30,423 nucleotides of DNA from a virus, in IMG/VR virus record IMGVR_UViG_3300031599_000028, positions 1 through 30,423 of that record. One strand, 5' to 3'. The notes beneath the pieces are model-generated. The model made no database searches. It saw nothing but the letters and a program-made list of their open reading frames with translations, and was not told the DNA's origin. A program made the position numbers and the translations under genes. Positions within the stretch are counted from its first letter, which is position 1, and each line of letters starts with the position of its first letter. Positions 1 to 30,423 of this stretch are shown one piece after another.

Positions 1-3000
1 CCTACTAAAACTAGACAGATGGTTATTGAACAGTATGATGCTACTGCAACTACCCTTAATAATTTTCAAATTACTGCTTACGAAAAAGCAGGAAATCTAA
101 ATGACTTAGTAGTAAACGTTTATGTAGATAATAAATTAAAAGTTAACTTGCAAGATTACGAAATTGATAGAACAAATGGATTTGCAACAGTCCGATTTAT
201 TAAAGACTTAACTGTTGATCAAGTTATTAAAATTAAAACACATAGTTTAGCAAAGAAAACATCTAAAGGATATTATGAATTTCCGCATAATTTAGAAAGA
301 AATCCGTTAAACGAAGACATAACTGAATTTACATTAGGTGAAGTTATTGACCATGTAGATACAATGATTGAAGATGTACAAACTTTTAAAGGAGTGTATC
401 CAGGAAGAAGTAATTTAAGAGACGCTGGCGAAACAGATCATTTTGGTAAAAGATTTGTTAAACATAGTGGTCCTATTAATGTTCCTTTATATCATATAAC
501 AAATAAAGATTTTAATATTGTAAAAGCAATTAAATTTTCAAAGAATGAATATTCTAGATTTAAAAGAAAGTTTTTAGAAACAGCAAACAGTTTAGGTTAT
601 GATGGTCCTACAAAGCAGCATGTAGATAAAATTTTAAATCAACTTAACAAAGAAAAACTAAAGTCTGAACCGTTTTACTTCTCAGACATGTTAGGCTATG
701 GCGATGCAAATAGAATTGAATATACAGTTTTAGATGCAAAGACTAAAACTTATCCTATAACTTCTCCGTTTACGTTATCTTCACTTAGTGCTAAAACTAT
801 TAGCATTTATTTAAATGGAATCCAGTTAGTACATAGCAAAGATTATACATTTAATACTGATGGTTATGTTATTATAAGTGCTGTTATAGCTGAAGATGAT
901 ATTATAGAAATATACGAGTATGAAACAACTGATGGTAGTTTTATTGCTCCTACTCCTACAAAGTTAGGATTGTATCCAAAGTACAATCCAGAGCTAACAA
1001 TTGACGATGGCTATAGAGCAATAAGCACAAATGAAACAGGGCCTTTCAAGTTATACGGAGTCGAAACACAAACTACTAAAGTACATAACGGTAAAGTTGG
1101 ATGGTTTTATCCTTTATATACTTCTGAAGAAGAAGCAATTGCAGCAGATTCTGATTCTAGTGCAGACACAGGTTCCGCACACGAACATGTATTTGACGGA
1201 TTGTCCCAAATATTTTATATGCCGGCTACAGCATTTAATCATGCTGTACAAGATGATCTAACATACGAAGAATACCCAATTGGTATTGCTATGATTAGAG
1301 GACATGATGGTAGCTATATTAAAGCATATAAAGACTTTAGAGATAACTTATTATTAGATCTTGAAAGAAGAATTTTTAATAATATTAAAGTTGAATACTC
1401 AAAAGATTTACTTAATGTTGACGACTTTATAGGCGGCGAATATAAAACTAACGAATTTAGTAGAACAGAAATAGATAATACATTAGCTGGCGATTTTAAT
1501 CAATGGCTTAGATTAGTTAATGGTGCAGAATACACAGAACATAATTTTTATGATCCTAATGATAGTTTTACATTCAACTATGCAACTGCTAGTACTCCTT
1601 TAGGAAACGCAATGCCAGGCTTCTGGAGAGGAGCATATATGTATGCATATGGTACTGATAGACCAAATGCTACTCCTTGGGAAATGTTGGGGTTAACAAT
1701 GAAACCAACATGGTGGGAAACTACGTATGGTCCTGCTCCGTACTCCGGTGACAACTTAGTGTTATGGAGAGATTTAGAAGAAGGTAGAATTAAAGTACCA
1801 GGTAAGGCCGAAGTAGTTGACACAAAATATGCTAGACCTGGACTAACTAAACATATTCCTGTTGATAGCCAAGGAAAACTACGCTCTCCAAGAGATAGTG
1901 GATTTATTAGAGGCTTCTCAAGAAGAGATGCAATCAACGGATGGAAATTTGGCGATCATGGTCCAGTTGAAACCGCATGGAGAAGAAGTCCAGAATATCC
2001 GTTTGCAGTACTATTAGCTTTCTTATTAAACAAGCCTGCTAAAGTAATGGGACTAGGATTTGATGTATCAAGAACTAAGAGGAATTTAGTTAAGCAATGG
2101 GTACATTCAGATACTAATAAACCTATACAATTATCTACTACAAAATTACCTAACACATATAAAGACGATACTAGAGTATTAACCTGCGGACTTGTAAATT
2201 ACATTTACAATTTAGTATCAAGTGATGTATTAAGTGTTTACACAGATTATAAAAATAATCTTTTAAATCTAAAAAATCAATTAGGATTTAAGGTTGGTGG
2301 ATTTACTGATACTAGTAAATTTAATTTAATACTTGATAGTCGTTCTCCTACACTACAATTAGAACGAGACGGTATATTTGTTCCACAAGAAAGTTTTAAA
2401 GTTTTTAGTAATACTAGTAGTCCATTAGAAATGGTTACATATAGTGGTGTTTCTATTGAAAGAGCTGGCACTGGATTTATTGTTAGAGGTTATAATAATA
2501 CTACACCAAGTTTTGAATATTATAAACCAATACCTGGATCGTCAAAGATAACAGTAACAGTAGGCGGCATCTCAGAAGACACCCAAGAGTGGGCAGGAAG
2601 TACTTTTTACGAACGTGGAATGATTGTTCAATATAAGAGTGAATTTTATAGAGCAACAAAACAAGTTACTAGCGGAACAGCTTTTACTATTGACGGCTTT
2701 GTAAAATTAGATGAGTTACCAATTACAGGCGGACGTACTGCGTTTTTCTTTAAAGATTTTGATAATACAGAAGTATATAAGTTACAATACGGAACAAAGT
2801 TAAAAAACACACAAGAAGTAGTAGACTTTATGTTAGGCTATAATGCTAGACAAAAGGTATTAGGATTTACATTTAATGAAGTAGACTCTTTTAATAAGAA
2901 AGTTGAAAATTGGGAAAATACTGCAAGAGAATTTATGTTCTTTACAACACAGGGTTGGTCTGCAGGAACAATAATTACATTAAGTCCAGGCGCTTCAAAA

Positions 3001-9000: not shown

Positions 9001-12000
9001 ACATATTCTGAAATAACATTTATTAGCACAAGTAAAGTTACTCCTGCAAAATTAACTCCAGTAGTATTAAATGGAAAAATTACTCGAGTTGATATAGTTG
9101 AATCAGGAAGAGGCTACAAAGTTGCTCCTAAAATTAAATTTGTAGGCGTTGGTGTAGATGCAGAAATAAAATTAACTATTGATACATTAGGAAAAATTAC
9201 TAGTGCTGTAGTAGAAAACCAAGGTACTGGATACAATGAAAGTACTACTATAAGTGTAAGAAGATATAGTGTACTTGTTGAATCTGATAGTACAGTGTTT
9301 AATAAATGGTCATTGTATTCTTGGAATGAAACAGATGGTAAATGGTTTAGAAGAAGCATACAAGATTACGATGTAACACAATTTTGGGATACAGTTGATT
9401 GGTATGCAACAGGATACAATCAGTTTACAGAAGTTGACAGCATTATTGCAGGCTCATACTTATTAACAAGTCTTGAGAATTCAATAGGCAATGTTGTTAA
9501 GATTAGCTCAGTAGGCGTAGGCGGTTGGCTACTATTAGAAAAAGTAGCAGATGAAGACACAGAAGATTATACTGTTAATTACAAAACAATTGGTAGACAA
9601 AATGGCACAGTACAATTTAATGATAAGTTATATGACTATGGTAAAAATACTGTAGGATTTGATAATAGAAGTTTTGATAGTTTCTTTTATGATAATACTC
9701 CATCTAAAGAATTAAGAATTATTTTAGAAGCTATTAGAGATAATATTTTTGTTGGAACATTAGCTGTAGAGTATAACGAATTATTTTTTGCATCATTACG
9801 TTATGTGCTTGCAGAACAAATCGGTGCAGACTGGTTATTTAAAACTAGCTTTGTTAAAGCTAAACACAATTTAGGTCCGTTATATCAAGATGTAACGTTT
9901 AATAACAATAATCTAGCAAACTATGAAGCATACATAAATGAAGTTAAGCCTTATAGTACAAACATAAGAGAATTTGTTAGTAACTATGCAAATACAGAAC
10001 CAACAAATAGTTCTGTAAGTGATTTTGATTTGCCACCAGAGTATAACAAAGCAAATAAAGCTATTGAACCAAGTGGCGCCCAAGTTATTAATGGTGTTAT
10101 TGTAAGTGCTCCTAATAGTTCACAAATTTATCCAAGAAAACATTGGGCAGATAATAACGCTTATCAGATTAAAGAAGTTAAAATTTCTAATCCAGGATCA
10201 GGATATACATATGCTCCTACTGTAAAAATAGTTAGCAGTGAAGGAACTGGTGCTACTGCTAGAGCGTATTTAGGTTATGGAAAAATTACTAAAATTGAAG
10301 TACTAACACCTGGTACAGGATACATTCAAAGTCCAGTAGTTACAATCGAAGGCCCGCAGTTAGAAGGAAGTATCAATGCCGCTGCTAGTGCTATATTAGG
10401 AAATGGAGTAGTTAGAAGTCCAAAGATTGTATCTAAGTTTGATAGAGTTTCTGGAAAAGTTTATTACTCATCATTAGAGCAAGTAGTAACACTTGAAGGC
10501 ACAGGAACACAAATAGTATATAACTTAGAATGGCCAATGGATCTTTCAAATTCAAAAGTTCAAGTTTGGATTGGTAAAGATAACACTACGTTAGTTGAGA
10601 AACTACGTAGTGAATATACATATAAAAATGTTGAAAATACTACAGCAGGTTATACTAGAGAGCAAGGTCGAATTACGTTTACTACACCACCGACGAATAC
10701 ATACAAAATTAAAATAAAATACTTTAGACCAATTAGTTTATTAAATGCTGAAGATAGAATTAATTTTGCATACAGTCCTGGCGCTAACATGTATGGCAAA
10801 GAACTGCAACAATTAATGACAGGCGTAGACTACGGCGGAGTTCAAGTACGTAGTTTTGAATTTGATAAACCATCAGGATGGGATACACAAGGTTGGTATT
10901 CCGATAGCTGGGATACGTTTGATAACACATTTGAAGATGAAGTTTTTTACTCGGATGGTTCAACAAATGCAGTACAATTAACTAAACCATTAGCTAATGG
11001 TATCATGTATAATTTCTATCTAAACGGAGTACGTATAGATGATCCAAACTATGATGCAAGTACATTAAATGATAACCCTACTGCAATTACAACTTCTATT
11101 ATTGGCGACGGCGTAACACAAGTACTTGATCTAGAGACAATGGGAATAAGAGTATTACCAAGTGATGTATTAGTTATTAGAAAAACAACTAGTGATGGTA
11201 GTGTATTACCAGATGCTGAAAGTTACGATACAGCATTAACTGGAGGCGACTTAGCATATAGTACAGCAACTGGCATAAAGTCAGAAGATATTATTGTTGA
11301 CGGTGACGGATTTGTAACACCAACTACTAGCGGAGGCCCTGAAGAATTAGTTCCAGGACAAGTTAATGATACATTAGATCTTAAAGTGTTTACTAGAGAT
11401 AGTGCAGGCCAAGGACTTATACATAGTCAAAGTTATATTATGGGTAATACGCTAACTTATAGTTTAGATGTTATTCCACGTACTTCGGCAGCGGTAATTG
11501 TTAAAGTAAATAATATTATTTTAAACCCAACACAATATACAATAAATTGGGCAAGTAATTCTGTAACACTTAATGCAAGTTCTGAAGGTGATGAACTTAA
11601 CATTATAGCAATGGCGCAAGGAACACAAAAAGTATTAGACTTTGGCCAAGGTGTTTCAGTAGCAGGACAAGCAGATTATTTAACTACTGTTGATTGGCAG
11701 AAAGACGTTAGTGTTTTTGTAAGTGTTAACGGTGTAGCTACTGACGTACAAATATTTAACAGTGAAGATAGTGGTGCTCCTATAGCTAAAGTTGGTATTA
11801 GATTTACTACACCAAGAGTAAGTAGTGGTGAAGTAATACATTATACGGTATTCAGCGATAAAACAAAAGTCAACTATAGTCAAGTTAGTAAAGATACGTT
11901 TACAGCAACTGGATCTTCATCACAGTTTACTTTATCTAGTACTCCATTTTATTCATTGCCCAATGAGCATAATATTATTGTAAAGATTGACAATAAAATT

Positions 12001-13317: not shown

Positions 13318-13320
13318 ATA
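13313..13320 (+). promoter_or_regulatory. T4-type late promoter-like octamer AATAAATA
   Basis: AATAAATA matches 7 of 8 positions of the T4 late promoter TATAAATA. It overlaps the stop codon of the giant gene and lies 16 bases before the ATG at 13337. T4-like phages recognise this element with a phage late sigma factor. A+T-rich DNA makes chance matches likely, but two other inter-gene gaps have similar octamers. Confidence 0.45.
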
Positions 13321-13336
13321 CAGTATAGGAATTAAC

Positions 13337-13939
13337 ATGAACGATAATATGCAAGATAAAAATGGAGTACTAGTTCAAGGACATATAAAAATCTTTGATC
13401 CTAAGTCAAAAGAAGTATACGTTGAAAAACGTAACGCAATTCATTATGAGAATATGAGTATTGCATTAGCAGAAAGTTTAAGCAATGCAGGTGCTGGATT
13501 TATATATGAAATGAGTTTCGGCAACGGCGGCACATCAGTTGATCCAACTGGTATTATTACATATCTTACACCTAATAGTACAGGAACCAACGCTAGTTTG
13601 TATAACCAAACATATACTAAAGTAGTTGATGAAAGAAGTGTTAACAATACAGATGCTGCTAGAAATAAAACAGAAACACGCCATGTAAGTGGAACAAACT
13701 ATACTGATATACTAGTTTCATGTTTATTAGATTACGGTGAACCAAGCGGGCAAGAAGCATTTGATAATGCAACTGATCCTGATAATTCTTATGTTTTCGA
13801 TGAACTAGGATTAAGAAGTTATAGTGCGAGTGGCACAGGGCGCCTTATTACACACGTAATTTTTCATCCTGTACAAAAATCATTGAACAGATTAATACAA
13901 ATTGATTATACTGTTCGTGTACAGAGTTTAGCGGGTTAA
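13337..13939 (+). CDS. Virion structural protein, 200 aa
   Basis: It starts at ATG 13337 with AGGA six bases upstream. The N-terminus (GHIKIFDPKSKEVYVEKRNA, then IHYENMS) and the following FGNGGTSVDPTG match a family that I recall recurring beside tail-fibre genes of marine T4-like phages, usually annotated only as virion structural or hypothetical. The C-terminus, residues 160-200, reads as alternating beta strands (HVIFHPVQKSLNRLIQIDYT). There is no enzyme motif, coiled coil or membrane segment. It lies 19 bases after the giant gene and 11 bases before the first fibre gene. A tail or baseplate accessory role fits the context, but the specific position in the virion is not known. Confidence 0.8.
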   Translation: MNDNMQDKNGVLVQGHIKIFDPKSKEVYVEKRNAIHYENMSIALAESLSNAGAGFIYEMSFGNGGTSVDPTGIITYLTPNSTGTNASLYNQTYTKVVDERSVNNTDAARNKTETRHVSGTNYTDILVSCLLDYGEPSGQEAFDNATDPDNSYVFDELGLRSYSASGTGRLITHVIFHPVQKSLNRLIQIDYTVRVQSLAG

Positions 13940-13950
13940 GGGGATAATAC

Positions 13951-16011
13951 ATGGCATATGCAATTAGTTATACAGACTCTGTAAACAAAGGTAATATTAC
14001 CGTTGAAGATAATACTATTAACACAGAGACTACACTAAGTCTACCTGGTAGATTTACAACGGCGTATGGCCAAGCAATTAGTGAAAATTTCTTACACTTA
14101 TTAGAAAATTTTGCTAATAGTACTGAACCTTTACGCCCAGTTGAAGGGCAATTATGGTACGATACAACAACAGGTGTTGATCAACTTAAAATTTATGATG
14201 GAACATTTTGGCAAGCTGCAGCAGGACTTAAAAAAGCAACGTCTGAGCCAGCAGTTGCAAATAGTAGCGCCGGAGATTTATGGGTAAACACAGGTAGTCA
14301 GCAGTTATATTTGTTTACAGGTTCTACATGGGTATTAGTTGGTCCAGAGTTTACTGATGGATTACTTACAGGTACAAAATCAGATGCATTGGTTGGTACA
14401 GACAACTTAACATATAAAGTACTTTCGATCAAAGTACAAGATAAAACGGCATTTATTATTAGTGACCGGGCATTTATACCTAAGACTGCTATCACAGGAT
14501 TTACAACTGGTATCAAAGCAGGAATGAATGTTAGTTCAACTGCACTTTTTGGTACTGAATTACTAAAATATTACGGAACAGCAGAAAAAGCAGATGCACT
14601 AGTTGTTGGAACAACTACAGTTCCTGCAGCAAACTTTGTTAGAACTGACCAAACATCAACATCAAACTTTGATTTAAAAATTAAAAATAATGGTGGTGTT
14701 GTTATTGGTACAGGCGGACAATTAAGTATAGGAGTTGATGGAGAGCAAGGTGTTATACAACATAATACTAGTGGTTCTAACATTGATTTTAGGCTTAGAA
14801 GCGGAACATCAACTCCTACAGTAATGCGTATTGATGCAAGTGGCAAAGTAGGAATTAATAATAGTGCTCCAGAACAAGATCTTGATGTAGCTGGCAATGT
14901 AAAAGTTACACCTAAATCAGGTGTTGCAGGATCAGGGTATTTACAAGTTACTAGCACAACTAATTCTACAAGCATTAGCACAGGAGCAATTATTACATCA
15001 GGCGGCGTAGGTGTTGCACTAAATGCATATATTGGTGGTAATGTTGATATTGGTGGTATATTACAAACAGGTAATATTTCTCCAGATGTAGGATCATCAA
15101 GAAATATTGGTACGCTAATTAACAAATATGATAACATTTATGCTAATACATTCTTTGGAAATATGCAAGGCAATGTTAGTGGTACAGTAAGTGGAAGAGC
15201 TGGGTCAGCAGATAAATTAGCAAGTGCTACAACGTTTGCAGTAGGTGGTGATGTTGAAGCAGCAAGCTTTGAATTTGATGGGCAAACCGGCGGCAGTACA
15301 AAGACATTTAATATGTCTATTGCAAACACATTTATTTCTAGTAAGACGGTTACATATGATGCTGCAAACTCCGATGAATTAATTATAAACAGACCTACAG
15401 GGACAACTGGTGTTTTTAGAATTACAAAAGCTAATTTTATAAAATCTATACCGTTAAACCCAATTGGAGCAATGATGGCTTATGGTGGTACAACTTCCCC
15501 ATTAGGATGGGTATTTTGTGATGGATCAGAAGTTAGAAAATCAGACTATAATGATTTATGGTTAACAATTGGATTTAACTTTAAAGATGCTTCACTAATT
15601 AGTGACTCTGGAGTTAACTTTTTTGCATTGCCAGACATGCGTGGTAGATTTCCATTAGGATTGGATAACATCGGCGGAGCAAATGCAAATAGAGTATCTG
15701 ATAATACAGCAAAAACAATTGGTGGAGCATCAGGCTCCGAAACAACAGCAATTGCTGTTGCTAACTTACCAGAACACGAACATGATATGGAAGGCGATAG
15801 CGGAACACAGTATTATGCAACAAGAGTTGGTACTGGTACACCGACTGATAGTGGTGCAATTCAATTATCAATTACTTCAGGTACACAAGGTACACAAGGT
15901 TTAGCTTCTAGTGGTGGCATTAAAACAGCGGCAACATTAGGAACATCATTGAATACTATTGATCCTTACTTAGCTCTTAACTATATTATCTATACTGGAG
16001 TCACAACATGA
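13951..16011 (+). CDS. Tail fibre protein with C-terminal phage tail-collar domain
   Basis: AAGGGG, overlapping the previous stop, sits seven bases before ATG 13951. Residues 1-250 are the module shared with the next two genes: YGQAISENFLHLLENF, then two copies of a GxLW.xT...L..Y/F.G..W motif (about 66-87 and 107-132). Residues near 310 carry the fibre-type phrase DLDVAGNVKV, and a segment with SSRNIGTLINKYDNIYAN follows. From about 499 the protein is a phage tail-collar domain: PIGAMMAYGG, LGWVFCDGSEV, PDMRGRFPLG near 560, HEHDMEG near 608 and a DPYLALNYIIYTG end. Collar domains are known in T4 gp12-type short fibres and related adhesins, and often end in a receptor-binding head. Role: trimeric fibre contacting the host (inference). 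It overlaps the next gene as ATGA. Confidence 0.85.
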   Translation: MAYAISYTDSVNKGNITVEDNTINTETTLSLPGRFTTAYGQAISENFLHLLENFANSTEPLRPVEGQLWYDTTTGVDQLKIYDGTFWQAAAGLKKATSEPAVANSSAGDLWVNTGSQQLYLFTGSTWVLVGPEFTDGLLTGTKSDALVGTDNLTYKVLSIKVQDKTAFIISDRAFIPKTAITGFTTGIKAGMNVSSTALFGTELLKYYGTAEKADALVVGTTTVPAANFVRTDQTSTSNFDLKIKNNGGVVIGTGGQLSIGVDGEQGVIQHNTSGSNIDFRLRSGTSTPTVMRIDASGKVGINNSAPEQDLDVAGNVKVTPKSGVAGSGYLQVTSTTNSTSISTGAIITSGGVGVALNAYIGGNVDIGGILQTGNISPDVGSSRNIGTLINKYDNIYANTFFGNMQGNVSGTVSGRAGSADKLASATTFAVGGDVEAASFEFDGQTGGSTKTFNMSIANTFISSKTVTYDAANSDELIINRPTGTTGVFRITKANFIKSIPLNPIGAMMAYGGTTSPLGWVFCDGSEVRKSDYNDLWLTIGFNFKDASLISDSGVNFFALPDMRGRFPLGLDNIGGANANRVSDNTAKTIGGASGSETTAIAVANLPEHEHDMEGDSGTQYYATRVGTGTPTDSGAIQLSITSGTQGTQGLASSGGIKTAATLGTSLNTIDPYLALNYIIYTGVTT

Positions 16012-21647: not shown

Positions 21648-22589
21648 ATGCCAACACGTATATTAGCATCAAGATTCAATAATTTAAAAACAACAGTAGA
21701 TAGACTGTTGGGACCTTGTCTTGAAACAAGTAAAGTTAGTGGCAACTACACTAAAGGCTACGGTGAAACACCAAGTAGTTATCTTGCACAATCTAATTCT
21801 GGCAATGACTTAATTGATGCTGCGGCATACCAAGGATTATATCTTGATATAGCTAAAATTAAAATACATCAAGTAGGTGCAGCAGCATTTACTCCTTTAG
21901 CATACCGAGTTGGTGACATTCTAAATAACGCAAATGCTGATAAAGTTGAAGAAGCATTTGTTGCAGGTATAGAGTCATTAGCAACTGATATAACAACCAA
22001 TAAGTTTGTATGCCATTCTACACAAGCAGACTTACTAGCAGCTGATAGCTCAACTAGTGCTTCTACTTGGAACGGAACACTAAGTCATATAGTTAAAGTA
22101 ACCTTTGCTTCTGCTCAAGAAAGACGCGAATATTTTAATGCAGGCGGCACAATAAGATTTTCACCATCAATGTCCTATTCAGGAACACAAGCTAAGACAC
22201 TTGACTGGAAAGAAATGATTAATGAAATAGGTGCAGTAAGTTTTGGTTGTCAAGGTACTACTAGTTCTGGAGGCCACGGACAAGATTATGGCGGCATGGG
22301 ACATGATTATATGACTGCGTCATACCAGAGAGCGTACTATAATATAGGTGGCGGTGTATATACTCCTAATCAATATACAGTATATGCATTAGAATTAAGT
22401 GATACAGTATTACAATTTAAAACTGAAATTACTGATCCTAGTTACGGCACTCCGGACGAAACAGTACTAGCGGCTGTTAATAATGTAGTACAATTCTTTA
22501 GACCCAACGGTACAGCTATAATAAACGGCACTTCTCATAATACAGTTATTCGTTCTATTCCTGTTGCTCAAACAATATCTCCTTTTTAA
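21648..22589 (+). CDS. Tail-associated structural protein, short paralogue of the preceding gene
   Basis: ATG 21648 follows GAGAGG at 11 bases. Its whole length corresponds to the N-terminal 290 residues of the preceding gene: RILASRFNNLKTTVDRLLG at the start, YGETPSSY, AKIKIHQVG, HSTQA, TWNGTLSHIVKVTF, RREYFNAGGTIRF, LDWKEMINEIG, DYMTASYQRAYYNIGGGVYT. It lacks the Calx-beta-like and later segments, ending soon after FFRPNGT. The conserved FNAGGxIRF block is, as I recall, common in marine phage tail proteins of unknown position in the virion. It is the last gene of the structural block: a strong sigma70-type promoter begins four bases after its stop. It could form mixed oligomers with its longer paralogue (inference). 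Confidence 0.75.
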   Translation: MPTRILASRFNNLKTTVDRLLGPCLETSKVSGNYTKGYGETPSSYLAQSNSGNDLIDAAAYQGLYLDIAKIKIHQVGAAAFTPLAYRVGDILNNANADKVEEAFVAGIESLATDITTNKFVCHSTQADLLAADSSTSASTWNGTLSHIVKVTFASAQERREYFNAGGTIRFSPSMSYSGTQAKTLDWKEMINEIGAVSFGCQGTTSSGGHGQDYGGMGHDYMTASYQRAYYNIGGGVYTPNQYTVYALELSDTVLQFKTEITDPSYGTPDETVLAAVNNVVQFFRPNGTAIINGTSHNTVIRSIPVAQTISPF

Positions 22590-22592
22590 CGG

Positions 22593-22621
22593 TTGACTAT
22601 CTAGTATAATAATGCTATAAT
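22593..22621 (+). promoter_or_regulatory. Strong sigma70-type promoter with extended -10
   Basis: TTGACT at 22593-22598, a 17-base spacer, and TATAAT at 22616-22621 preceded by TGC (extended -10 at 22613-22615). Five of six -35 bases and all -10 bases match consensus. Predicted start of RNA is near 22628. It would let host polymerase transcribe the downstream operon without the phage late sigma factor, separating it from the late structural genes. An additional TATAAT at 22605 has no matching -35. Confidence 0.8.
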
Positions 22622-22627
22622 AGTAAT

Positions 22628-22669
22628 TATATTCAGACTTCTGCCTCCACTGTGGGCAAAATGAATATA
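22628..22669 (+). promoter_or_regulatory. Stem-loop at the predicted 5' end of the operon mRNA
   Basis: TATATTCA (22628-22635) pairs with TGAATATA (22662-22669). Inside, after a GAC bulge, TT-c-TGCC (22639-22645) pairs with GGCA-a-AA (22655-22661), leaving a nine-base loop. This gives 14 pairs with one mismatch and one bulge. The hairpin starts exactly at the predicted transcription start and ends ten bases before the AGGAG site at 22679. A 5'-terminal stem can protect an mRNA from decay. It has no T-run, so a terminator role is less likely. Confidence 0.6.
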
Positions 22670-22690
22670 TAATATTATAGGAGAGTCTGT

Positions 22691-23050
22691 ATGGATGAAA
22701 GATTAGATAAGGCATTAGAGTTTTCAAACTATATGCTTACGCTTAATAATCAAAAAAGGTTATTGACTGAAAAGTACCAAGAAGAATTATTATATTTTTA
22801 TGACGGTTGCCAATTTACTGTTACTAAAGAACTAATTAATTTTGTCAAATTGTTACTTGATAATGAGCAAGATGAAAATGCTGTACTAACAGATGACAAT
22901 GGTATTCCTACTATTGTTGCAGATGTAGATAAATTTTATAATTCAATCATCAATGTATACTTTGTAGCTTCGAATACATATCATTCAGAATATATAAAAT
23001 TAAAAAATCAAAGAAGCGTGGAAAAACTAGTTGACTATGAAGAAAACTAA
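22691..23050 (+). CDS. Small conserved-type phage protein, 119 aa, function unknown
   Basis: This is the first gene of the sigma70-driven operon, with a strong AGGAG seven bases before ATG 22691. The protein is acidic and mostly helical by appearance: KALEFSNYMLTLNNQKRLL, then FTVTKELINFVKLLLD, DNGIPTIVADVDKFYNSIIN and a basic end, NQRSVEKLVD. I believe I have seen similar proteins in marine T4-like phages, always without a function. There is no DNA-binding, enzymatic or membrane motif. Its last 14 bases overlap the next gene, so translation is probably coupled. Its promoter-proximal position suggests it is needed early or in large amounts, but what it does cannot be read from the sequence. 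Confidence 0.75.
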   Translation: MDERLDKALEFSNYMLTLNNQKRLLTEKYQEELLYFYDGCQFTVTKELINFVKLLLDNEQDENAVLTDDNGIPTIVADVDKFYNSIINVYFVASNTYHSEYIKLKNQRSVEKLVDYEEN

Positions 23051-23894
23051 AGGTGCGTTCTTAATTGCTCGAAATAACTCTCAGGTTGATTATGTTAAAC
23101 AAGCAGTTTTTTTAGCAAAGCGTATACGTAAATATTTAGGTATACCAACTACAGTGCTAACTGACTCGGTAGAATATATTAATCATAATTTTGACGCTGG
23201 AGTGTTTGATAGAATTATTCCGTGTTCTGCTACGCAACAACAAAATCAAAGACTGTATTTTGATGGCAGTATGCATCAACGTCAAGCAACATTTAATAAT
23301 AGAACTAGATCACAAGCATATGATCTTAGTCCGTATGACGAAACGTTATTGTTAGATACAGATTATATTATTAGTAATAGTTTATTAAAAAACTGTTTTG
23401 ACTCGCAAGATGATTTTTTAATTTACAAAGATTCAACTGATGTTGCACAGGTTCGAGACGAACAAGAATTTAAATACATAAGTGATACTAGTGTTCCATT
23501 TTACTGGGCAACTTGTGTATTTTTTAGAAAAACTCCAGTTAATAAAATTTATTTTGATTTAGTACAACATATTGAAAAAGAATGGGATCATTATAGAAGA
23601 GTTTATCAAATAGCATCTCAGTTGTTTAGAAATGATTTTGCATTTAGTATTGCAATCCATATAATGAACGGATTTCAAGAAGGGTTATTTGCTAAGCCAA
23701 TGCCAGGTAAAATGATGTATACTACTGATAGAGATATTTTGTGGCAGTTAAATGATGATCAAATGATGTTCTTAGTAGAAAAGAAAGGTTACTTAGGAGA
23801 GTATACTGCATTAAAAACAAAAGGTCAAACAATTCATGTTATGAACAAATATAGTTTAGGACGAATGATTGATTTGGAGATGTCTAATGAGTAA
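23037..23894 (+). CDS. Glycosyltransferase-like protein (GT-A fold, DTD motif)
   Basis: The start is taken as ATG 23037; a TTG six bases upstream in frame is possible but less likely. The ribosome binding site is weak (GTGGA), fitting coupling to the overlapping previous gene. The 285-residue protein begins GAFLIARNNSQVDYVKQAVF, a Rossmann-like strand-helix start, and has LLLDTDYII at 104-112. The D107-T-D109 triplet is placed like the metal and nucleotide-sugar binding DxD of GT-A enzymes such as GT8. It is related to the next gene (YVKQA.xLA in both). Sugar donor and acceptor are unknown. Context with two more transferases suggests glycan assembly on a phage or host surface. Confidence 0.65.
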   Translation: MKKTKGAFLIARNNSQVDYVKQAVFLAKRIRKYLGIPTTVLTDSVEYINHNFDAGVFDRIIPCSATQQQNQRLYFDGSMHQRQATFNNRTRSQAYDLSPYDETLLLDTDYIISNSLLKNCFDSQDDFLIYKDSTDVAQVRDEQEFKYISDTSVPFYWATCVFFRKTPVNKIYFDLVQHIEKEWDHYRRVYQIASQLFRNDFAFSIAIHIMNGFQEGLFAKPMPGKMMYTTDRDILWQLNDDQMMFLVEKKGYLGEYTALKTKGQTIHVMNKYSLGRMIDLEMSNE

Positions 23895-24726
23895 AGGTAT
23901 TGTAGTACTAGCACAAAATCTTAAAGACACAAGTTATGTTAAACAAGCAGAAACTTTAGCAATGAGTTTGAAAGTTACAAATCCTAAAATTAAAATTAGT
24001 ATTATAACTAATAACAAGGTTGAATTTAAAGATTTATTTGATCAAGTAATTCCTATACCTTTTGGCGATGCAGCAAAAGACTCTACTTGGAAGATTGAAA
24101 ATAGATGGAAGATATATCATGCTAGTCCGTATAATCAAACGATTGTAATGGATACTGATATGCTAGTATTACAAGATATATCGGCGTGGTGGAAGTTTTT
24201 AGAAAATTATAAAATATTTTATACTAATAAAGTGTATACTTACAGAGGCACTATAGCTGACACCAAACATTATAGAAAGACATTCCTTAAAAATAGTTTG
24301 CCTAATTTATTTTCCGGAGTACACTATTTTGAAAAATCTGATAAAGCACAAGAATTTTATCGTTGGTTAGAATTAGTTGTTAACAACTGGGAAGCATTTT
24401 ATGAAGTATTTCTAGAAGGAGTAACTAGACCTACACATGTTAGTATAGATGTATGTGTGTCAATTGTTGCTATGATACTCGATTGCACAAATGATATAAC
24501 TAATCCAAATGTAAGCTTTCCTAGTTTTACACATATGAAAAAGAATTGCCAAGGCTGGATTGATGGATCAAGTAATTGGCAGGACCGTGTTGGATTTTAT
24601 ATTTCAAGAGATTGTAAAGTTAAAATAGGAAATTACGACCAAACAGGAATCTTACATTACACTGAGAATGATTTTATAGAAAAGACACCTGTTATTGAAC
24701 GATATAGGAATTTACTAAATGTCTGA
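23887..24726 (+). CDS. Glycosyltransferase-like protein (GT-A fold, DTD motif), paralogue of preceding gene
   Basis: The start is ATG 23887, preceded by TTGGAG with seven bases of spacing; a longer form from TTG 23869 adds six residues but lacks this site. It overlaps the previous gene by eight bases. The 279-residue protein opens with GIVVLAQNLKDTSYVKQAET, parallel to the preceding gene. It has VMDTDMLVL with D89-T-D91, matching the GT-A DxD motif, and then VHYFEKSDKAQEFYRWLELV, a region where GT8-like enzymes bind acceptor. The C-terminal part contains HMKKNCQGW and GILHYTEND, with a His possibly completing the metal site. The pair looks like an old duplication. Substrates are not predictable. 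Confidence 0.7.
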   Translation: MSKGIVVLAQNLKDTSYVKQAETLAMSLKVTNPKIKISIITNNKVEFKDLFDQVIPIPFGDAAKDSTWKIENRWKIYHASPYNQTIVMDTDMLVLQDISAWWKFLENYKIFYTNKVYTYRGTIADTKHYRKTFLKNSLPNLFSGVHYFEKSDKAQEFYRWLELVVNNWEAFYEVFLEGVTRPTHVSIDVCVSIVAMILDCTNDITNPNVSFPSFTHMKKNCQGWIDGSSNWQDRVGFYISRDCKVKIGNYDQTGILHYTENDFIEKTPVIERYRNLLNV

Positions 24727-26062
24727 GTTAGCTGATTTAATTAAATCTTTACAAGTAGAAGTAAAGCAGTCTCAATCTACATATGTTTACTATGATACAG
24801 AAAGTGGAAAAGTAAATAGACTTAGTGGAACAGAGCAAGAACCCGACGAAGATGAATCTGTTCTTGCAGTACCTCATGATATTACTAGTCCTATACTTAC
24901 AGGTGAAAAAAGAACATCAGACTATATTATTATATACGATATAGCATTAAAACAACGAATATTAAAAGAAACAACATATGAAGATTCACACAAAGAAGCT
25001 TCAACAATGTGTTATCAATTGCCTATCATTAAGAACAATAGATCAGGACATATGGCGTGTACTGAAATATATGACGGTGTTGAAGTTTACCTATGGTTTA
25101 AAGATACAGCCTACAAGAAAAATCATTTAGTTTGGTACGAAGACACAGTTTATAAGTTATTAAAATCTAATAGAAAAGCACAAAGTTTTAGTAAAAAGAA
25201 TGCAATAGTGTTTATTAACAATGTACAGTTGACTAACTTGGCAACGCAAACTTTAGCATTAACTACGTTACGACATACTCAAGAGTATGTTGGCTTACAT
25301 ATTGATATTTGGTATAATGATTTAGAACACTTAGCAGGACAACATGTATGGATTGGTAAATGTATATATAGAATAATTGAAGATCAGTTAGCTGACACAG
25401 AATTTAATCCTGATAATGCAGTTATGCTGGTATCTAATGTTTTACTTTACAGGGACACAAATGTAAGTCTTGATACTATTACGCATATACAAGACGGTGA
25501 TGTATATTTAGACTATAATAAAATTTATAGTGCTAGCCTTACTGAGAACGTATATGATAAAACGTCAAATGATGTAATATTTTATACAGGTCAACATCAT
25601 ATTGTAAAATGGGTATCTACAAATGATACTTTGTTAAGATTTGACACTACAGATACAAAAGACTACACCTTAACTGAAAACACTATAGAAGTAGTAGATC
25701 AAACTGACTTAAAGAACGGCACTATAGTTTTATTAGGTAAGAAACTGTATACTATACAGCTTGATAAAGAATATGATATTATTGTTACACAAGACAAGCC
25801 GTCAAAGATATGGACATTAGCATTAAATCCTGCAACATTAAAGTATTTACAAATGACAAATTATGAGCATACTGATATGCTGTATTTTAGTATAACTGCA
25901 AAACATGATCCAAATATACTTTATAGGTCACTTAAAATTTCAATGTCAGAATTAAATAAAATTCATGTTATTCCTTTTCAACATGATAACGAAAGCACCG
26001 AAGATGTAAGTTTATATACAGCCAAATATTTTGATAGCTACGCACACGAGGTAATTGAATGA
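24719..26062 (+). CDS. Unknown protein, 447 aa, with beta-repeat-like segments
   Basis: ATG 24719 has AGGA nine bases upstream and overlaps the preceding stop by eight bases. The N-terminus reads MSELADLIKSLQVEVKQSQS, then YYDTESGKVNRLSG and acidic EQEPDEDES. A helical stretch (YEDSHKEASTMCYQLPII) leads to a long beta-rich part. Near residues 135-150, KNHLVWYEDTVYKLL resembles the 'GxxVxYxxxxYxA' core of the CBM5/12-like modules in the giant protein, and AGQHVWIGKCIYRI further on looks like a second copy. No catalytic motif is visible. I believe similar proteins occur in marine T4-like phages without known function. It may be structural, which would link the operon to the virion, but that is weakly supported. 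Confidence 0.6.
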   Translation: MSELADLIKSLQVEVKQSQSTYVYYDTESGKVNRLSGTEQEPDEDESVLAVPHDITSPILTGEKRTSDYIIIYDIALKQRILKETTYEDSHKEASTMCYQLPIIKNNRSGHMACTEIYDGVEVYLWFKDTAYKKNHLVWYEDTVYKLLKSNRKAQSFSKKNAIVFINNVQLTNLATQTLALTTLRHTQEYVGLHIDIWYNDLEHLAGQHVWIGKCIYRIIEDQLADTEFNPDNAVMLVSNVLLYRDTNVSLDTITHIQDGDVYLDYNKIYSASLTENVYDKTSNDVIFYTGQHHIVKWVSTNDTLLRFDTTDTKDYTLTENTIEVVDQTDLKNGTIVLLGKKLYTIQLDKEYDIIVTQDKPSKIWTLALNPATLKYLQMTNYEHTDMLYFSITAKHDPNILYRSLKISMSELNKIHVIPFQHDNESTEDVSLYTAKYFDSYAHEVIE

Positions 26063-26982
26063 GTAACACTTTTAAAGTAACAGACTACGACATTATATAT
26101 CTAAGTTATGATGAACCTAATGCAGAAAAAAATTATGCAGATTTATGTAAAAAAGTTCCGTGGGCAAAACGGGTACACGGAGTAGAAGGCAGTGACGCTG
26201 CACATAAAGCTTGTGCAAAGCTTAGTGAAACAGATCGATTTATTACAGTTGATGCTGATAATATTGTAAATGAAAAATTCATTAATCAAGAAATTAACTT
26301 TGATGAACACGAAGATTTACAACACAGTGTAATTAGTTGGGCTGGATATAATGCTGTTAATGGACTAATGTACGGCAACGGCGGACTTAAATGTTGGCCA
26401 AAGAAGTTTGTACTAGGAATGAAAACGCATGAAAATGCAGATGCAAATAACGTACATGCCCAAGTAGACTTTTGTTGGGATATTAATTATATACAAATGA
26501 ATAGTTGCTTTAGTACAGTATATAATAATCATACAGCACAGCAAGCATGGAGAGCAGGATTCCGTGAAGGTGTTAAAATGGCACTAGATCGAGGAATGCG
26601 TGTTAATAAAGAAGAGTTTGCAAAACTGCATTGGAAAAATTTACATAGGCTTTATGTTTGGCTAACAGTAGGAACAGATGCAAAAAACGGGTTGTGGGCA
26701 ATTTATGGTGCTAGAGAAGGGCTGTATAAGACTATGGCAACAGATTGGGACTTTGTTAATGTAAGAGACTTTACATACCTTAATAATTATTGGGAACTTC
26801 AAGTTGATAAAGATGAGTCAGCACTACTTGACAAAGTTAGAATGTTAGGGTCAAAGTTACTAAATGAATTAGATGTTCCAATTCCAGTTGAGCCGTTTAA
26901 TCCTGAACAAAGTAAATTTTTTAAAACAGTTTATCAAAATCCAGGAAGAATGCAACACCAATTTATAGATATCGAGACATAA
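26059..26982 (+). CDS. GT-A-like glycosyltransferase family protein (DADN motif)
   Basis: ATG 26059 overlaps the preceding TGA (ATGA), with GAGG seven bases upstream. The 307-residue protein opens with DYDIIYLSYDEPNAEKNYAD, then KRVHGVEGSDAAHKACA and FITVDADNIV, where D65-A-D67 sits at the position of a GT-A DxD motif: the strand, helix and acidic triplet order fits a nucleotide-sugar transferase. Later segments are WAGYNAVNGLMYGNGGLKCW and many Trp/His residues. I recall this family from marine T4-like phages, usually as hypothetical. A transferase role is inferred from fold-like pattern and context, not from a close known relative. It differs in sequence from the two upstream transferases. 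Confidence 0.55.
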   Translation: MSNTFKVTDYDIIYLSYDEPNAEKNYADLCKKVPWAKRVHGVEGSDAAHKACAKLSETDRFITVDADNIVNEKFINQEINFDEHEDLQHSVISWAGYNAVNGLMYGNGGLKCWPKKFVLGMKTHENADANNVHAQVDFCWDINYIQMNSCFSTVYNNHTAQQAWRAGFREGVKMALDRGMRVNKEEFAKLHWKNLHRLYVWLTVGTDAKNGLWAIYGAREGLYKTMATDWDFVNVRDFTYLNNYWELQVDKDESALLDKVRMLGSKLLNELDVPIPVEPFNPEQSKFFKTVYQNPGRMQHQFIDIET

Positions 26983-26983
26983 T

Positions 26984-28387
26984 ATGACTCAAAGTTCCTA
27001 CAATGCTGGAGCTGAACTTGCAAGAGAAAAACTTAAAAAAATAAGTTGTTCTATGTGTTTAGCAAAGTGGACACAAGTAACTATGCATCTCCATAACGGG
27101 CATACACATAGTTGCCATCATCCTGCTCCGCATTTTATTCCACTAGATGAACTTAAAGATAATCCGCATGCATTACATAACACAAAACACAAAATAGAGC
27201 AACGTAAAATGATGCTAGAAGGTGTAAAGCCTGATGAATGTAATTACTGTTGGAATATTGAAGATTTAGATAATGGACATTTTAGTGATAGACATTTTAA
27301 AAGCGGTGAAGATTGGAATGAAGGTCAATATGAAAAAATTAAAGAATCTCCATTAAGTAATACATTTTTACCAACCTATGTAGAAGTTAGCTTTAATAAT
27401 ACATGTAACTTTGCATGCATGTACTGTAGTCCTCAAATATCTAGTAAATGGATGGAAGACATTGAAGCAAACGGAGCATATGACTTAGGCGACTATAAAG
27501 TACATCATCTTGATTATTTGCGTAGTAAAAACCAAATACCAATTCGAAACAGAGACCATAATCCTTATATTGAAGCATTTTGGAAAATATGGCCTGAGCT
27601 ATATACTAATCTAAAAGTTTTTAGAATAACAGGTGGCGAGCCGTTGCTTAGTAAGCATACTTGGAAAGTATTAAAATATATCCAAGACAACCCAAACCCT
27701 AATTTAGTATTAGGAATTAATACTAACTTGTGTGTACAAGATGGATTCATTGATAGGTTAATACCAATTGCTAAAGACTTAATTGAAAATAACAAAATTA
27801 AAAACTTTGAGTTATACACTAGTGTTGAAGGTACTGGAAAACAAGCTGAATACATCCGAGATGGATTAGATTACGATAAATTTATTTACAATTTAAATAA
27901 AGTTACAAAAGAAATACCAATGATAGCTTGGAAATCAAAAACAATAATTATGGCAACATATAATTTATTAAGTATTCCAACTTTTCGTAATTTACTAGAA
28001 TGGCTTCTCGACTGGCGCAAGGAACACGGGTCAAGCACTTGGAAAAAGCTATGGTTAGATATAAGCTATTTAACGTATCCTAATTGGCAAACTATTGCAC
28101 TTGCTGATAAAGAAATGTTGAAAATAATGCAAGATGATCTTAAATTTATGGAGTCTAACAGAGAACAAGAAATAGGCCACCATGGATTCCAAGATACTGA
28201 AATATCTAAAATGGCAAGAGCTGTAGATTATGTAACACAAAGTTTAAACAACGATAAAACAAATGAAATGAAACAATTTTATAACTTCTTTACTTCTTAT
28301 GATATTAGACGTAACAAGAACTTTGTTGAAACATTTCCAGAGTATTCTAAGTTTTATCAGGAATGTAAAAGGATAGCAAATGGATAG
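26984..28387 (+). CDS. Radical SAM protein with N-terminal cysteine set (twitch-domain type)
   Basis: ATG 26984 follows the previous stop by one base; only a weak GAG precedes it. The radical SAM site is C141-N-F-A-C145-M-Y-C148 (CX3CX2C), binding a [4Fe-4S] cluster and S-adenosylmethionine, with T-GGEP at 216-220 as the second SAM-contact motif. Before it lie C22, C25, C44, C86 and C89 (KISCSMCLAKW, HTHSCHHP, ECNYCW), which could hold an auxiliary Fe-S cluster. This arrangement is like the 'twitch domain-containing radical SAM' group found in marine phages. Radical SAM enzymes make difficult C-H changes on sugars, peptides or other small molecules; the substrate here is unknown. It sits between two transferase-like genes, so sugar modification is a candidate (inference). 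Confidence 0.85.
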   Translation: MTQSSYNAGAELAREKLKKISCSMCLAKWTQVTMHLHNGHTHSCHHPAPHFIPLDELKDNPHALHNTKHKIEQRKMMLEGVKPDECNYCWNIEDLDNGHFSDRHFKSGEDWNEGQYEKIKESPLSNTFLPTYVEVSFNNTCNFACMYCSPQISSKWMEDIEANGAYDLGDYKVHHLDYLRSKNQIPIRNRDHNPYIEAFWKIWPELYTNLKVFRITGGEPLLSKHTWKVLKYIQDNPNPNLVLGINTNLCVQDGFIDRLIPIAKDLIENNKIKNFELYTSVEGTGKQAEYIRDGLDYDKFIYNLNKVTKEIPMIAWKSKTIIMATYNLLSIPTFRNLLEWLLDWRKEHGSSTWKKLWLDISYLTYPNWQTIALADKEMLKIMQDDLKFMESNREQEIGHHGFQDTEISKMARAVDYVTQSLNNDKTNEMKQFYNFFTSYDIRRNKNFVETFPEYSKFYQECKRIANG

Positions 28388-29630
28388 AGTAAACGTATGG
28401 AAAAGATCAGACTTATCTGCTGAAAATAAGGGATATAGATTCCATTGTGGATTTAAAAAAGAATTTTTAGGTTTATTTCCGAAACATGTAGATCCATTTA
28501 TTCCTCTTGGACTAACTACCAAACAAGCACATAAAGTTTATAACCCTATTAGCAGCTTTAAAACAATTAAAAATGAAAAATATTTTTATCCTATTCCTTG
28601 GGTACCGGTACAAGAAACAACGCATCTATTAAACGATGTAATTGAAATTGAACCAATGCATTTAACTTATGTAAGATCTAAGAGATGTAAAATACTAGTT
28701 ATTAATATTATGGAAGGCTGGAACCATGACGGGCATTATCAAACTATAATTGAAGCTATTAAAGACAAATATGATTTAGAATATGATGATTTTGTGCTAC
28801 TAACTGGCAACATGGATCAACCGCCATTCCCTGTTCCGAATATATATTATAATTGGTGGGAACAGCATATGAATGATCACGGATTAATGGAATATGCTAA
28901 ACAAGGTTTTTATAGTACAGACAGTGGGGTTCGTCCTAATAGATTTATTTGTTTAAACAGACGACCACATGCACACCGCATATTAGTAACTAGCGTATTA
29001 GAACAGTATAAAGATATTGGCATCTTAACTTGTGCTAAAGAAACTGACTTTGGCTCAATCCAGGGATTTAATGGAGCCCTGCTCAAGAAAATCCCACGGG
29101 ACTACCCTAAATTTAAAGATTATATACACAACAATATAAATTCTTTTCCAGAGTTTTTAAATAGATTACCTTTTACACATGATGACGGATATAATGCCGC
29201 TGACGATAATCCAACAGTTGATGAATCTAGAGATAAGTTTTATAATAGTTGGTTGCATGTTGTAACAGAAACATATCAGACAAACGGGCAAACATTTTTT
29301 AGTGAAAAAATATTTAAACCTATGATATATTGGCAACCATTTATTTTAGTTGGTGCCCAACATGACTTAAAAAGTTTAAGATCTCTTGGTTATAAAACAT
29401 TTGACGGAATAATAGATGAAACATATGATACTATTGAGGATAATGAAGAAAGACTTAAAGTATCTATTGAAGAAATAGAGCGTATTATTAAATTATCAGA
29501 TGAGGATATAGCTAAATTATATGAAGATTGCTATGAGATATTAACACACAACTTCCATCATTGGATGTATAGACAACAAACTATACACATGGGGTTAAAA
29601 GCTGACTTACTGGAGATTTTAAATGCCTAA
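28380..29630 (+). CDS. GT-B/fucosyltransferase-like protein
   Basis: ATG 28380 has AAAGGA six bases upstream and overlaps the preceding stop by eight bases. The 416-residue protein has a C-terminal motif at 306-325, FFSEKIFKPMIYWQPFILVG, followed by SLRSLGYKTFDGIIDE. The 'SEKxFKPxxxxxPFxxxG' pattern is like the donor-binding motif of GT10-type alpha-1,3-fucosyltransferases and similar GT-B enzymes. A middle block RFICLNRRPHAHRI (about 194-207) is typical of this phage family as I recall it. The N-terminal half is unassigned. Donor sugar and acceptor are unknown. The gene adds a fourth transferase-like activity to the operon. Confidence 0.6.
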   Translation: MDRVNVWKRSDLSAENKGYRFHCGFKKEFLGLFPKHVDPFIPLGLTTKQAHKVYNPISSFKTIKNEKYFYPIPWVPVQETTHLLNDVIEIEPMHLTYVRSKRCKILVINIMEGWNHDGHYQTIIEAIKDKYDLEYDDFVLLTGNMDQPPFPVPNIYYNWWEQHMNDHGLMEYAKQGFYSTDSGVRPNRFICLNRRPHAHRILVTSVLEQYKDIGILTCAKETDFGSIQGFNGALLKKIPRDYPKFKDYIHNNINSFPEFLNRLPFTHDDGYNAADDNPTVDESRDKFYNSWLHVVTETYQTNGQTFFSEKIFKPMIYWQPFILVGAQHDLKSLRSLGYKTFDGIIDETYDTIEDNEERLKVSIEEIERIIKLSDEDIAKLYEDCYEILTHNFHHWMYRQQTIHMGLKADLLEILNA

Positions 29631-30276
29631 ATTATTTGCATACGGGTGCAGTTATACTTACGGCCATGGATTAGAAGATTGTATTATTGGAAAGTGTGAC
29701 CCAGGTCTTGAACCTAGTAAGTTAGGGTATGCTTCACTAGTATCACAACACTTAAATGCTAATGAACTATTAAATTATAGTAGACCAGGTACAAGTAATA
29801 AATGGATAGTAAATGCAATTAACGTAACAGTTGAATCCCAACAAATAGGAAAAAACGATGCAGTTATTATACAATGGACTTTTCTAGATCGAACATGTGT
29901 ACTAAAAAAAGGTAGTCACCGAAACTTAGACAAATATGAACCTTTAGGTACATGGCTGGCAACTAAAAAATCATTATCATCAGCTTATTATAAGCACCTG
30001 TATAATATACATGATAGTACACACGTTACTTCTTGGTATATAAAATATGTTGATTTGTTATTAAAAAGTCACGGTATAACAAAAGTTTTACACACTGCTC
30101 TTCCTGACGGAGAAGTAGATATGAAAGTTTACCTACCGGATACTATAAAATGGTGGGACGATAACATATCTCGAAATCGAATTGATAAAGCAATTGATGG
30201 TAGTCACCCCGGTCCTGAATCTCAAAAATTATTCGCTGATAAATTATTTAAAGAACATGGTGATTATTTAAGTTGA
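29623..30276 (+). CDS. SGNH-hydrolase-like protein
   Basis: ATG 29623 has GGAG seven bases upstream and overlaps the preceding stop by eight bases. The 217-residue protein shows SGNH block I as YGCSYTYGHGL with Ser10, a block-II-like glycine in SRPGTSNKWIV, and block V as DGSHPGP with Asp192 and His195 spaced D-x-x-H. The block III GxND is not present: VIIQWTFLDR occupies its place, so the oxyanion-hole Asn is missing or replaced. SGNH/GDSL enzymes remove or transfer acyl groups, often acetyl groups on sugars or cell-wall polymers. In this operon it may edit O-acetylation of a glycan. With block III altered, reduced or different activity is possible. Confidence 0.7.
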   Translation: MPKLFAYGCSYTYGHGLEDCIIGKCDPGLEPSKLGYASLVSQHLNANELLNYSRPGTSNKWIVNAINVTVESQQIGKNDAVIIQWTFLDRTCVLKKGSHRNLDKYEPLGTWLATKKSLSSAYYKHLYNIHDSTHVTSWYIKYVDLLLKSHGITKVLHTALPDGEVDMKVYLPDTIKWWDDNISRNRIDKAIDGSHPGPESQKLFADKLFKEHGDYLS

Positions 30277-30423
30277 AAAAAATTACTGAGACAGATCCAC
30301 AAACAGCTGCACAGCAAGTAATTCCTATGTTGGATGAAATATCGCCTACTATGTGCATGGCTAAATGGCTATGGTCCAGTATACATTTAACTAATGGATT
30401 GACTAATAGTTGCTTTTTACCAC
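30273..30423 (+). CDS. Second radical SAM-type protein, N-terminal part, cut by window edge
   Basis: A frame starting at TTG 30273 overlaps the preceding TGA (TTGA) and runs open to the window end (50 residues). An in-frame stop at 30261 rules out a longer form, and the first ATG is 18 codons in. The segment PTMCMAKWLWSSIHLTNG then NSCFLP aligns with SMCLAKWTQVTMHLHNG and HSCHHP of the radical SAM gene at 26984. Cys28 and Cys47 have the same 19-residue spacing as Cys25 and Cys44 there. The radical SAM core itself is beyond the window, so the family call rests on the N-terminal match only. No good ribosome binding site is visible, consistent with translational coupling. Confidence 0.6.
   Translation, partial: MKKITETDPQTAAQQVIPMLDEISPTMCMAKWLWSSIHLTNGLTNSCFLP

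Follow-up and report, generated by a model that had tools for sequence, protein, structure and literature searches.

The window analysed here, a 30,423-base linear IMG/VR record (IMGVR_UViG_3300031599_000028), carries directly after its last tail-fibre gene an operon in which a fixed core of five genes, A-B-C-D-E, precedes an exchangeable module, and hundreds of related phages hold this first half fixed while they exchange the second half. With moderate confidence we read it as a phage-encoded operon for glycan and radical modification in the cytoplasm, served by its own promoter and having a virion protein as its most likely acceptor.

The window comes from an uncultured marine jumbo phage that is T4-like and belongs with 121Q, PA5oct and Atu_ph07. 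A 200-aa protein encoded at 13337-13939, between a giant structural ORF and the fibre genes, is 43-54% identical to structural or hypothetical proteins of the jumbo phages 121Q, CBB, Phosso and Atu_ph07. The T4-type major capsid protein gp23 is absent from the window itself and was found in six of eight related records, in one of which it is about 70% identical to gp23 of Vibrio phage 2.275.O, Phosso and PA5oct. The giant ORF (1-13317, at least 4,438 aa, open at the window start) matches the virion structural protein family phrog_10938 in its first part (E 2e-103), and a structural gene of 13 kb occupies the equivalent place in Atu_ph07 and Phosso. The fibre/collar-type protein encoded at 17929-19404 matches tail-fibre families (phrog_19602) in its C-terminal part, which is also conserved in these two phages.

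Viral contig searches with E, B and C as baits returned at least 575 relatives each; these contigs partly overlap between collections, and the loci are not all independent phages. No tblastn match to A, B, C, E, G or an E paralogue was obtained among isolate phages, and a set of 50,697 phage records yielded no relative of A, B, C, E or G. One close relative, with an E protein 86% identical to that of the window, lies in a contig of 335 kb that was binned as Neomarinimicrobiota. The phage cassette is also carried by two long contigs assigned to Candidatus Neomarinimicrobiota (PBPT01000016.1 and PBPT01000082.1; loci L111 and L114), which have many identical promoter sites in common and thus resemble jumbo-phage contigs inside a bacterial MAG. 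Host assignment through MAG bins was set aside because such contigs resemble phage sequences misplaced among bacterial bins.

Eight genes follow one another on the plus strand from 22691 to 30276, together with the start of a ninth, with overlaps of 4-14 bases or a 1-base gap. Gene A (22691-23050) encodes a conserved protein of 119 aa, B (23037-23894) a predicted GT8/glycogenin-like GT-A glycosyltransferase, C (23887-24726, ATG start at 23887) a predicted GT8-like GT-A glycosyltransferase homologous to B, D (24719-26062) a modular protein with a duplicated domain, and E (26059-26982) a predicted GT2-like GT-A glycosyltransferase. They are followed by F (26984-28387), a predicted N-terminal-twitch radical SAM enzyme; G (28380-29630), a putative glycosyltransferase with a GT10/GT-B-like motif; H (29623-30276), an SGNH-like esterase/acyltransferase candidate; and the start of a second gene of the N_Twi_rSAM family (30273-30423, TTG start at 30273), cut by the window end. 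A and B overlap by 14 bases (23037-23050), B and C, C and D, F and G, and G and H by 8, and D and E as well as H and the second radical SAM gene by 4, while E and F are separated by 1 base. Directly upstream, on the same strand, lies the last tail-fibre gene (21648-22589), whose product may be the acceptor of the modification.

A sigma70-type promoter, TTGACT-N17-TATAAT (22593-22621, plus strand; 11/12 consensus match), stands between the fibre gene and A and is the sole TTGAC-N-(16..18)-TATAAT match in the window on both strands. Matches of 11-12/12 with the exact 17-base spacing, at most 150 bases upstream of A, were found in 81 of 106 non-redundant loci, and comparable sites elsewhere on the same strand occur at 0.03 per kb; the promoter is more than a chance match. 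Similar sites do occur elsewhere in these genomes, so this type of promoter is not unique to the operon. It marks A-E as separately transcribed. A hairpin in the 5' UTR (22628-22669) was not significant (z -0.27), and T4 late promoters (TATAAATA) are lacking in the window and fewer than expected in the relatives. The original prediction had described a tight same-strand operon after the fibre genes, driven by sigma70; the ORFs, their strand, order and overlaps are as it described, and the near-perfect promoter and its retention among relatives bear out the second part.

The fixed core A-B-C-D-E is seen with more than one bait. Among the matches listed for B, gene A is adjacent in all 78 testable loci, C in 69 of 74 and E downstream in 55 of 57. 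Fibre-type genes stand no more than 6 kb upstream in 69/71, and radical SAM genes follow at most 6 kb downstream in 50/52. Among those listed for C, the corresponding counts are 67/70 for A, 67/70 for B, 61/62 for E, 60/62 for fibre-type genes and 53/54 for radical SAM genes. Nearly every one of 98 relatives has a fibre-type ORF whose end lies 21-115 bases before A. The proteins of these upstream ORFs share a NAGG-type motif in 68 of the 98; of the other 30, most have a similar C-terminal stretch, as judged by eye, and a few are clearly different.

The glycosyltransferases of the core are predicted from structure models and profiles. The AlphaFold model of B (pLDDT 95.4) aligns with glycogenin-1 over 206 residues (Z 15.6, rmsd 3.4), and D107-x-D109 and H267 are invariant in an alignment of relatives. 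B thus resembles glycogenin and other GT8 enzymes (LgtC, GlyE) in GT-A fold, DxD motif and overall topology, but is only about 12% identical. The profile of C matches glycogenin (E 5e-7) and that of B (99.7% in a profile-profile comparison), and each aspartate of D88-x-D90 is nearly invariant (at least 90%). Candidates for a C-terminal histidine metal ligand of the HxxGxxKPW-like type are, at the sequence level, the invariant H267, M269, N270 and K271 of B and the invariant H256-Y257 of C. Neither window protein matches a Pfam family at E<=1, and the best family for the relatives of C is PF11051 (E 0.003); since no match exceeds its cut-off, B and C are called GT8-like and are not filed as members of GT8. 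We regard B, on its model, and C, on its profile, as predicted GT8-type GT-A proteins.

The model of E (pLDDT 85.7) has a GT-A domain at about residues 4-160 (Z up to 10.6) followed by a helical C-terminal part. Mean column identity is 72% in 47 rows, with D65-x-D67 invariant. Its match to PF00535 (E 0.11, 12.8 bits) lies under the cut-off of 23.3, and E, a predicted GT-A protein, is therefore called GT2-like and not filed as a member of GT2. Relatives of 28-35% identity occur in actinobacteria and Parvibaculum, and the one bacterial neighbourhood examined (L123) has the E relative among glycosyltransferase genes. S-glycosylation was considered for E, as SunS/ThuS were the top Foldseek hits, and rejected since their Z scores tied with those of many other GT-A structures; a PDB hit to an ammonium transporter (0.011) was treated as chance.

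Two members of the core lack a family assignment. A has no family over the cut-off; a role as immunity protein was discarded, the CdiI_ImmP match (E 0.005) being below the cut-off and hits among relatives scattered. In the loci read, D lies between C and E with a single exception (L017); it ranges from 174 to 459 aa in the relatives and is conserved at its N-terminus. It contains a duplicated domain of about 65 aa, at about 110-175 and 185-250 (internal repeat 99.4%). Comparison of D with PHROGs and Pfam gave nothing consistent. No fold is recognised in the protein, which is possibly structural.

Beyond the core, F scores well over the curated cut-off of N_Twi_rSAM (NF033640; E 8e-93, 311.6 bits against a cut-off of 170), and C25, C44, C86, C89, C141-x3-C145-x2-C148 and GGEP (G217-P220) are conserved at 95% or more in 73 sequences. 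By this score, its N-terminal cysteine set, CxxxCxxC and GGEP, F is an N-terminal-twitch radical SAM enzyme. Twitch radical SAM enzymes include MoaA and cyclitol dehydrogenases such as BtrN; no reaction was found for any member of NF033640. The start of the second radical SAM protein is 95-97% identical to relatives in L002 and L003, and the copy in L025 matches NF033640 with E 3e-105. The only isolate-phage matches of F and the second radical SAM protein were to radical SAM proteins of Vibrio phages (21-26% identity).

G contains the conserved stretch ...TETYQ...FFSEKIFKPM...PFILVG. A single, weak hhalign comparison with 18 bacterial GT10 proteins gave a probability of 27% over the ExN...TEK motif (GT-A controls, 0.1%), and searches gave no Pfam family and no PF00852 hit; G is tentatively a GT10/GT-B-like glycosyltransferase. 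A bacterial G homologue adjoins a DegT-type aminotransferase-like gene. In H, G8-C9-S10 and H195-P196 are conserved at 95% or more in 10 sequences; N51 and G56 are also conserved, and the sequence contains DGSHP. The serine in block I and DxxH in block V agree with SGNH motifs, whereas neither H nor its L025 copy matches a Pfam GDSL/SGNH family; H is thus kept as a candidate SGNH-like esterase or acyltransferase. Another SGNH-type protein of the islands matches PF13472 below the cut-off (E 0.003).

The module from F onward is exchangeable and joined to the fixed core. Within 9.5 kb after E, 282 ORFs of the radical SAM cluster were counted in 87 of 89 loci, with one to seven radical SAM genes per locus that are 19-40% identical to one another within a locus. 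In two long contigs (G001 and G002) N_Twi matches extend across about 30-36 kb directly after E, with about ten and eight, respectively, over the cut-off within the island. Other recurrent members are glycosyltransferase-like G homologues, SGNH proteins and an E paralogue (35% identical to E), and the continuation in relatives includes a NeuD-type sugar acetyltransferase, a DegT/LegC-type aminotransferase, an NDP-sugar dehydrogenase and a LegB-like dehydratase. In L025, H is followed by radical SAM, G-like, acetyltransferase, SGNH-like, aminotransferase and dehydrogenase genes and the E paralogue. Comparison of the window with L023 reveals a clean module exchange: E and the second radical SAM protein retain 94% and 97% identity, G and H reach only 33% and 39%, and F is absent.

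A simple hydropathy test found a TM-like window in only 17 of 701 island ORFs, and no flippase, polymerase or lipid-carrier transferase was recognised in those island clusters that were scanned against families, so that the system looks soluble. A conserved protein of 71-78 aa, present at 13652-13870 of L048 and in 22 further loci, recurs in the islands. It is frequently preceded by the E paralogue and a conserved protein of about 230-350 aa and followed by radical SAM genes, and may act as a small substrate or partner. In L081 a 482-aa ORF on the opposite strand (12870-14318, minus strand; copies in L082, L084 and L085) interrupts the island.

The original prediction had counted four transferase-like proteins, for three of which a GT-A fold is predicted, in B and E by structure modelling and in C by profile, while the fourth, G, rests on a weak one-motif alignment. 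Its radical SAM enzyme (F) was recovered over the family cut-off and the start of a second was located, and its SGNH-like protein stands by the motifs of H and lacks a Pfam match. It had asked whether the genes co-occur in the same order in other phages, and they do recur together. The dedicated pathway that it proposed, building a modified sugar or decorating fibres or the host envelope, fits, and relatives add nucleotide-sugar genes in flanking positions, but the genes do not form one set. It named no single known pathway with this set of genes; close cases have been published (PMC7029224; PMC5332604).

One of these is the host recognition cluster of pelagimyophages, in which tail-fibre genes are accompanied by GT8 enzymes and by cassettes of radical SAM genes (PMC7029224). 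As in the clusters of pelagimyophages and cyanomyophages, a hypervariable fibre-side island with GT8, sugar and radical SAM genes is found here in marine T4-like phages (PMC7029224), and fibres, GT8-like genes and radical SAM genes occur together in a variable island. Unlike them, the present loci belong to a jumbo-phage lineage related to 121Q/PA5oct/Atu_ph07, and their variable part comes after a fixed A-B-C-D-E core that has a conserved promoter of its own. The marine T4-like genome TARA_ERS488813_N000010 has 12 radical SAM genes, treated within Fe-S metabolism (PMC5332604); it shares with our loci the many radical SAM genes of an uncultured marine T4-like phage, but here these are tied to a fibre-side glycosyltransferase core, and relative to the N_Twi_rSAM family at large the copies within one phage are diverged. 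No published description of the A-E core was found in a search mostly outside subscription journals. What is new here is the fixed core and its conserved promoter, the occurrence in jumbo phages, and the division into a fixed and an exchangeable part.

Among cultured phages, Atu_ph07 (Agrobacterium; L298, 23424-31073) and Phosso (Sinorhizobium; L299, 22650-30393) share the same genomic frame, with SPASM/radical SAM genes at the syntenic place directly after a fibre gene. These differ from the marine genes in being peptide-maturase-like (best models DynA, PapB and DarE) and in their company: an adjoining protein, whose tail region matches phrog_35144, ends in CHxSCHxSCHxSRSRR and looks like a radical SAM-modified virion protein, and nothing matches the profiles of B, C and E. 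CHxS-type RiPP tails were not seen in the marine loci.

As to substrates, order of steps and acceptor, we infer the following. With a sigma70-type promoter of its own next to the fibre genes, the operon would encode a soluble, cytoplasmic modification line in which B, C and E build a conserved common inner glycan. The exchangeable radical SAM enzymes, G and H, along with the aminotransferase, acetyltransferase and dehydrogenase of the relatives, would make and attach phage-specific, chemically unusual sugars or side-chain changes, and the acceptor would most likely be a virion protein encoded next door, for instance the preceding fibre or the structural-looking D. Counted for this reading are the GT8-like and GT2-like assignments with conserved DxD, the synteny of core and fibre genes with baits other than E and the fibre gene just before A, the nucleotide-sugar genes of relatives and the sugar-gene neighbourhoods of bacterial E and G relatives, and the conserved private promoter, soluble proteins and cassette exchange. 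Counted against it are the published reading of similar islands, which favours the host O-chain (PMC7029224), the assignment of G and H by motif only and the lack of a recognised fold in D; moreover, an operon with its own sigma70-type promoter need not be expressed with the fibres.

Fibre or other virion proteins are the more likely target than the host envelope, since the locking of the core to fibre genes and D, together with the radical SAM cassette of Atu_ph07 and Phosso beside the CHxS-tailed protein, tilts the reading to a virion acceptor. That the operon instead remodels the host envelope is less probable but a serious alternative: host LPS or another surface glycan would be changed during infection, blocking superinfection or re-adsorption, with the radical SAM and acyl enzymes making altered sugars. 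The GT8 and LPS-type genes of pelagimyophage islands have been read as modifying the host O-chain (PMC7029224), and a promoter that is sigma70-type and not obviously late, variable modules that suit competition between phages, and NDP-sugar genes flanking the set in relatives all agree with such a role. The near-absence of membrane proteins and of recognised lipid-carrier transferase, flippase and polymerase genes from the islands speaks against it, although soluble LPS glycosyltransferases also lack TM segments and the scarcity is compatible with it; the attachment of the core to fibre genes and D does not fit it.

Within the preferred reading of a virion acceptor, a more specific version is doubtful as yet: the twitch radical SAM arrays and the three-glycosyltransferase core would jointly equip the fibres with a radical-edited modification, glycan or peptide, that is rapidly exchanged, a strategy of which the CHxS-tail cassette of Atu_ph07 and Phosso would be the protein-only form. 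It is improbable that the radical SAM enzymes act on virion peptides like RiPP maturases, independently of the glycosyltransferases, in a general locus for virion-protein modification. The syntenic SPASM genes beside the CHxS-tailed protein favour this, and the presence of one to seven diverged radical SAM genes in a locus points to a number of different substrates or sites, but the marine loci lack such tails and their enzymes belong to the twitch type, among which BtrN-like cyclitol dehydrogenases are found. Glycosylation of phage DNA bases, a frequent role of phage glycosyltransferases and one conceivable in phages that are T4-like by capsid, is very improbable, given the fixed position of the operon beside fibre genes and the finding, in four related records (which may be fragments), of a single PF00303 gene apiece with a strong thymidylate-synthase-type match, so that a separate dCMP hydroxymethylase-like gene is not seen.

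If the acceptor is the virion, these loci would represent a system, widespread among phages, for diversifying the chemistry of the phage's host-contact surface by exchange of enzyme cassettes and not only through fibre sequence, as well as a large reservoir of uncharacterised radical SAM chemistry. Part of this idea is open to laboratory study, since the same locus holds a radical SAM cassette in the cultured phages Phosso and Atu_ph07. Should the host surface be the target, the fixed core with its private promoter would still be a module that can be recognised and used to annotate hundreds of contigs of uncultured marine phages, whose genes are currently without names.
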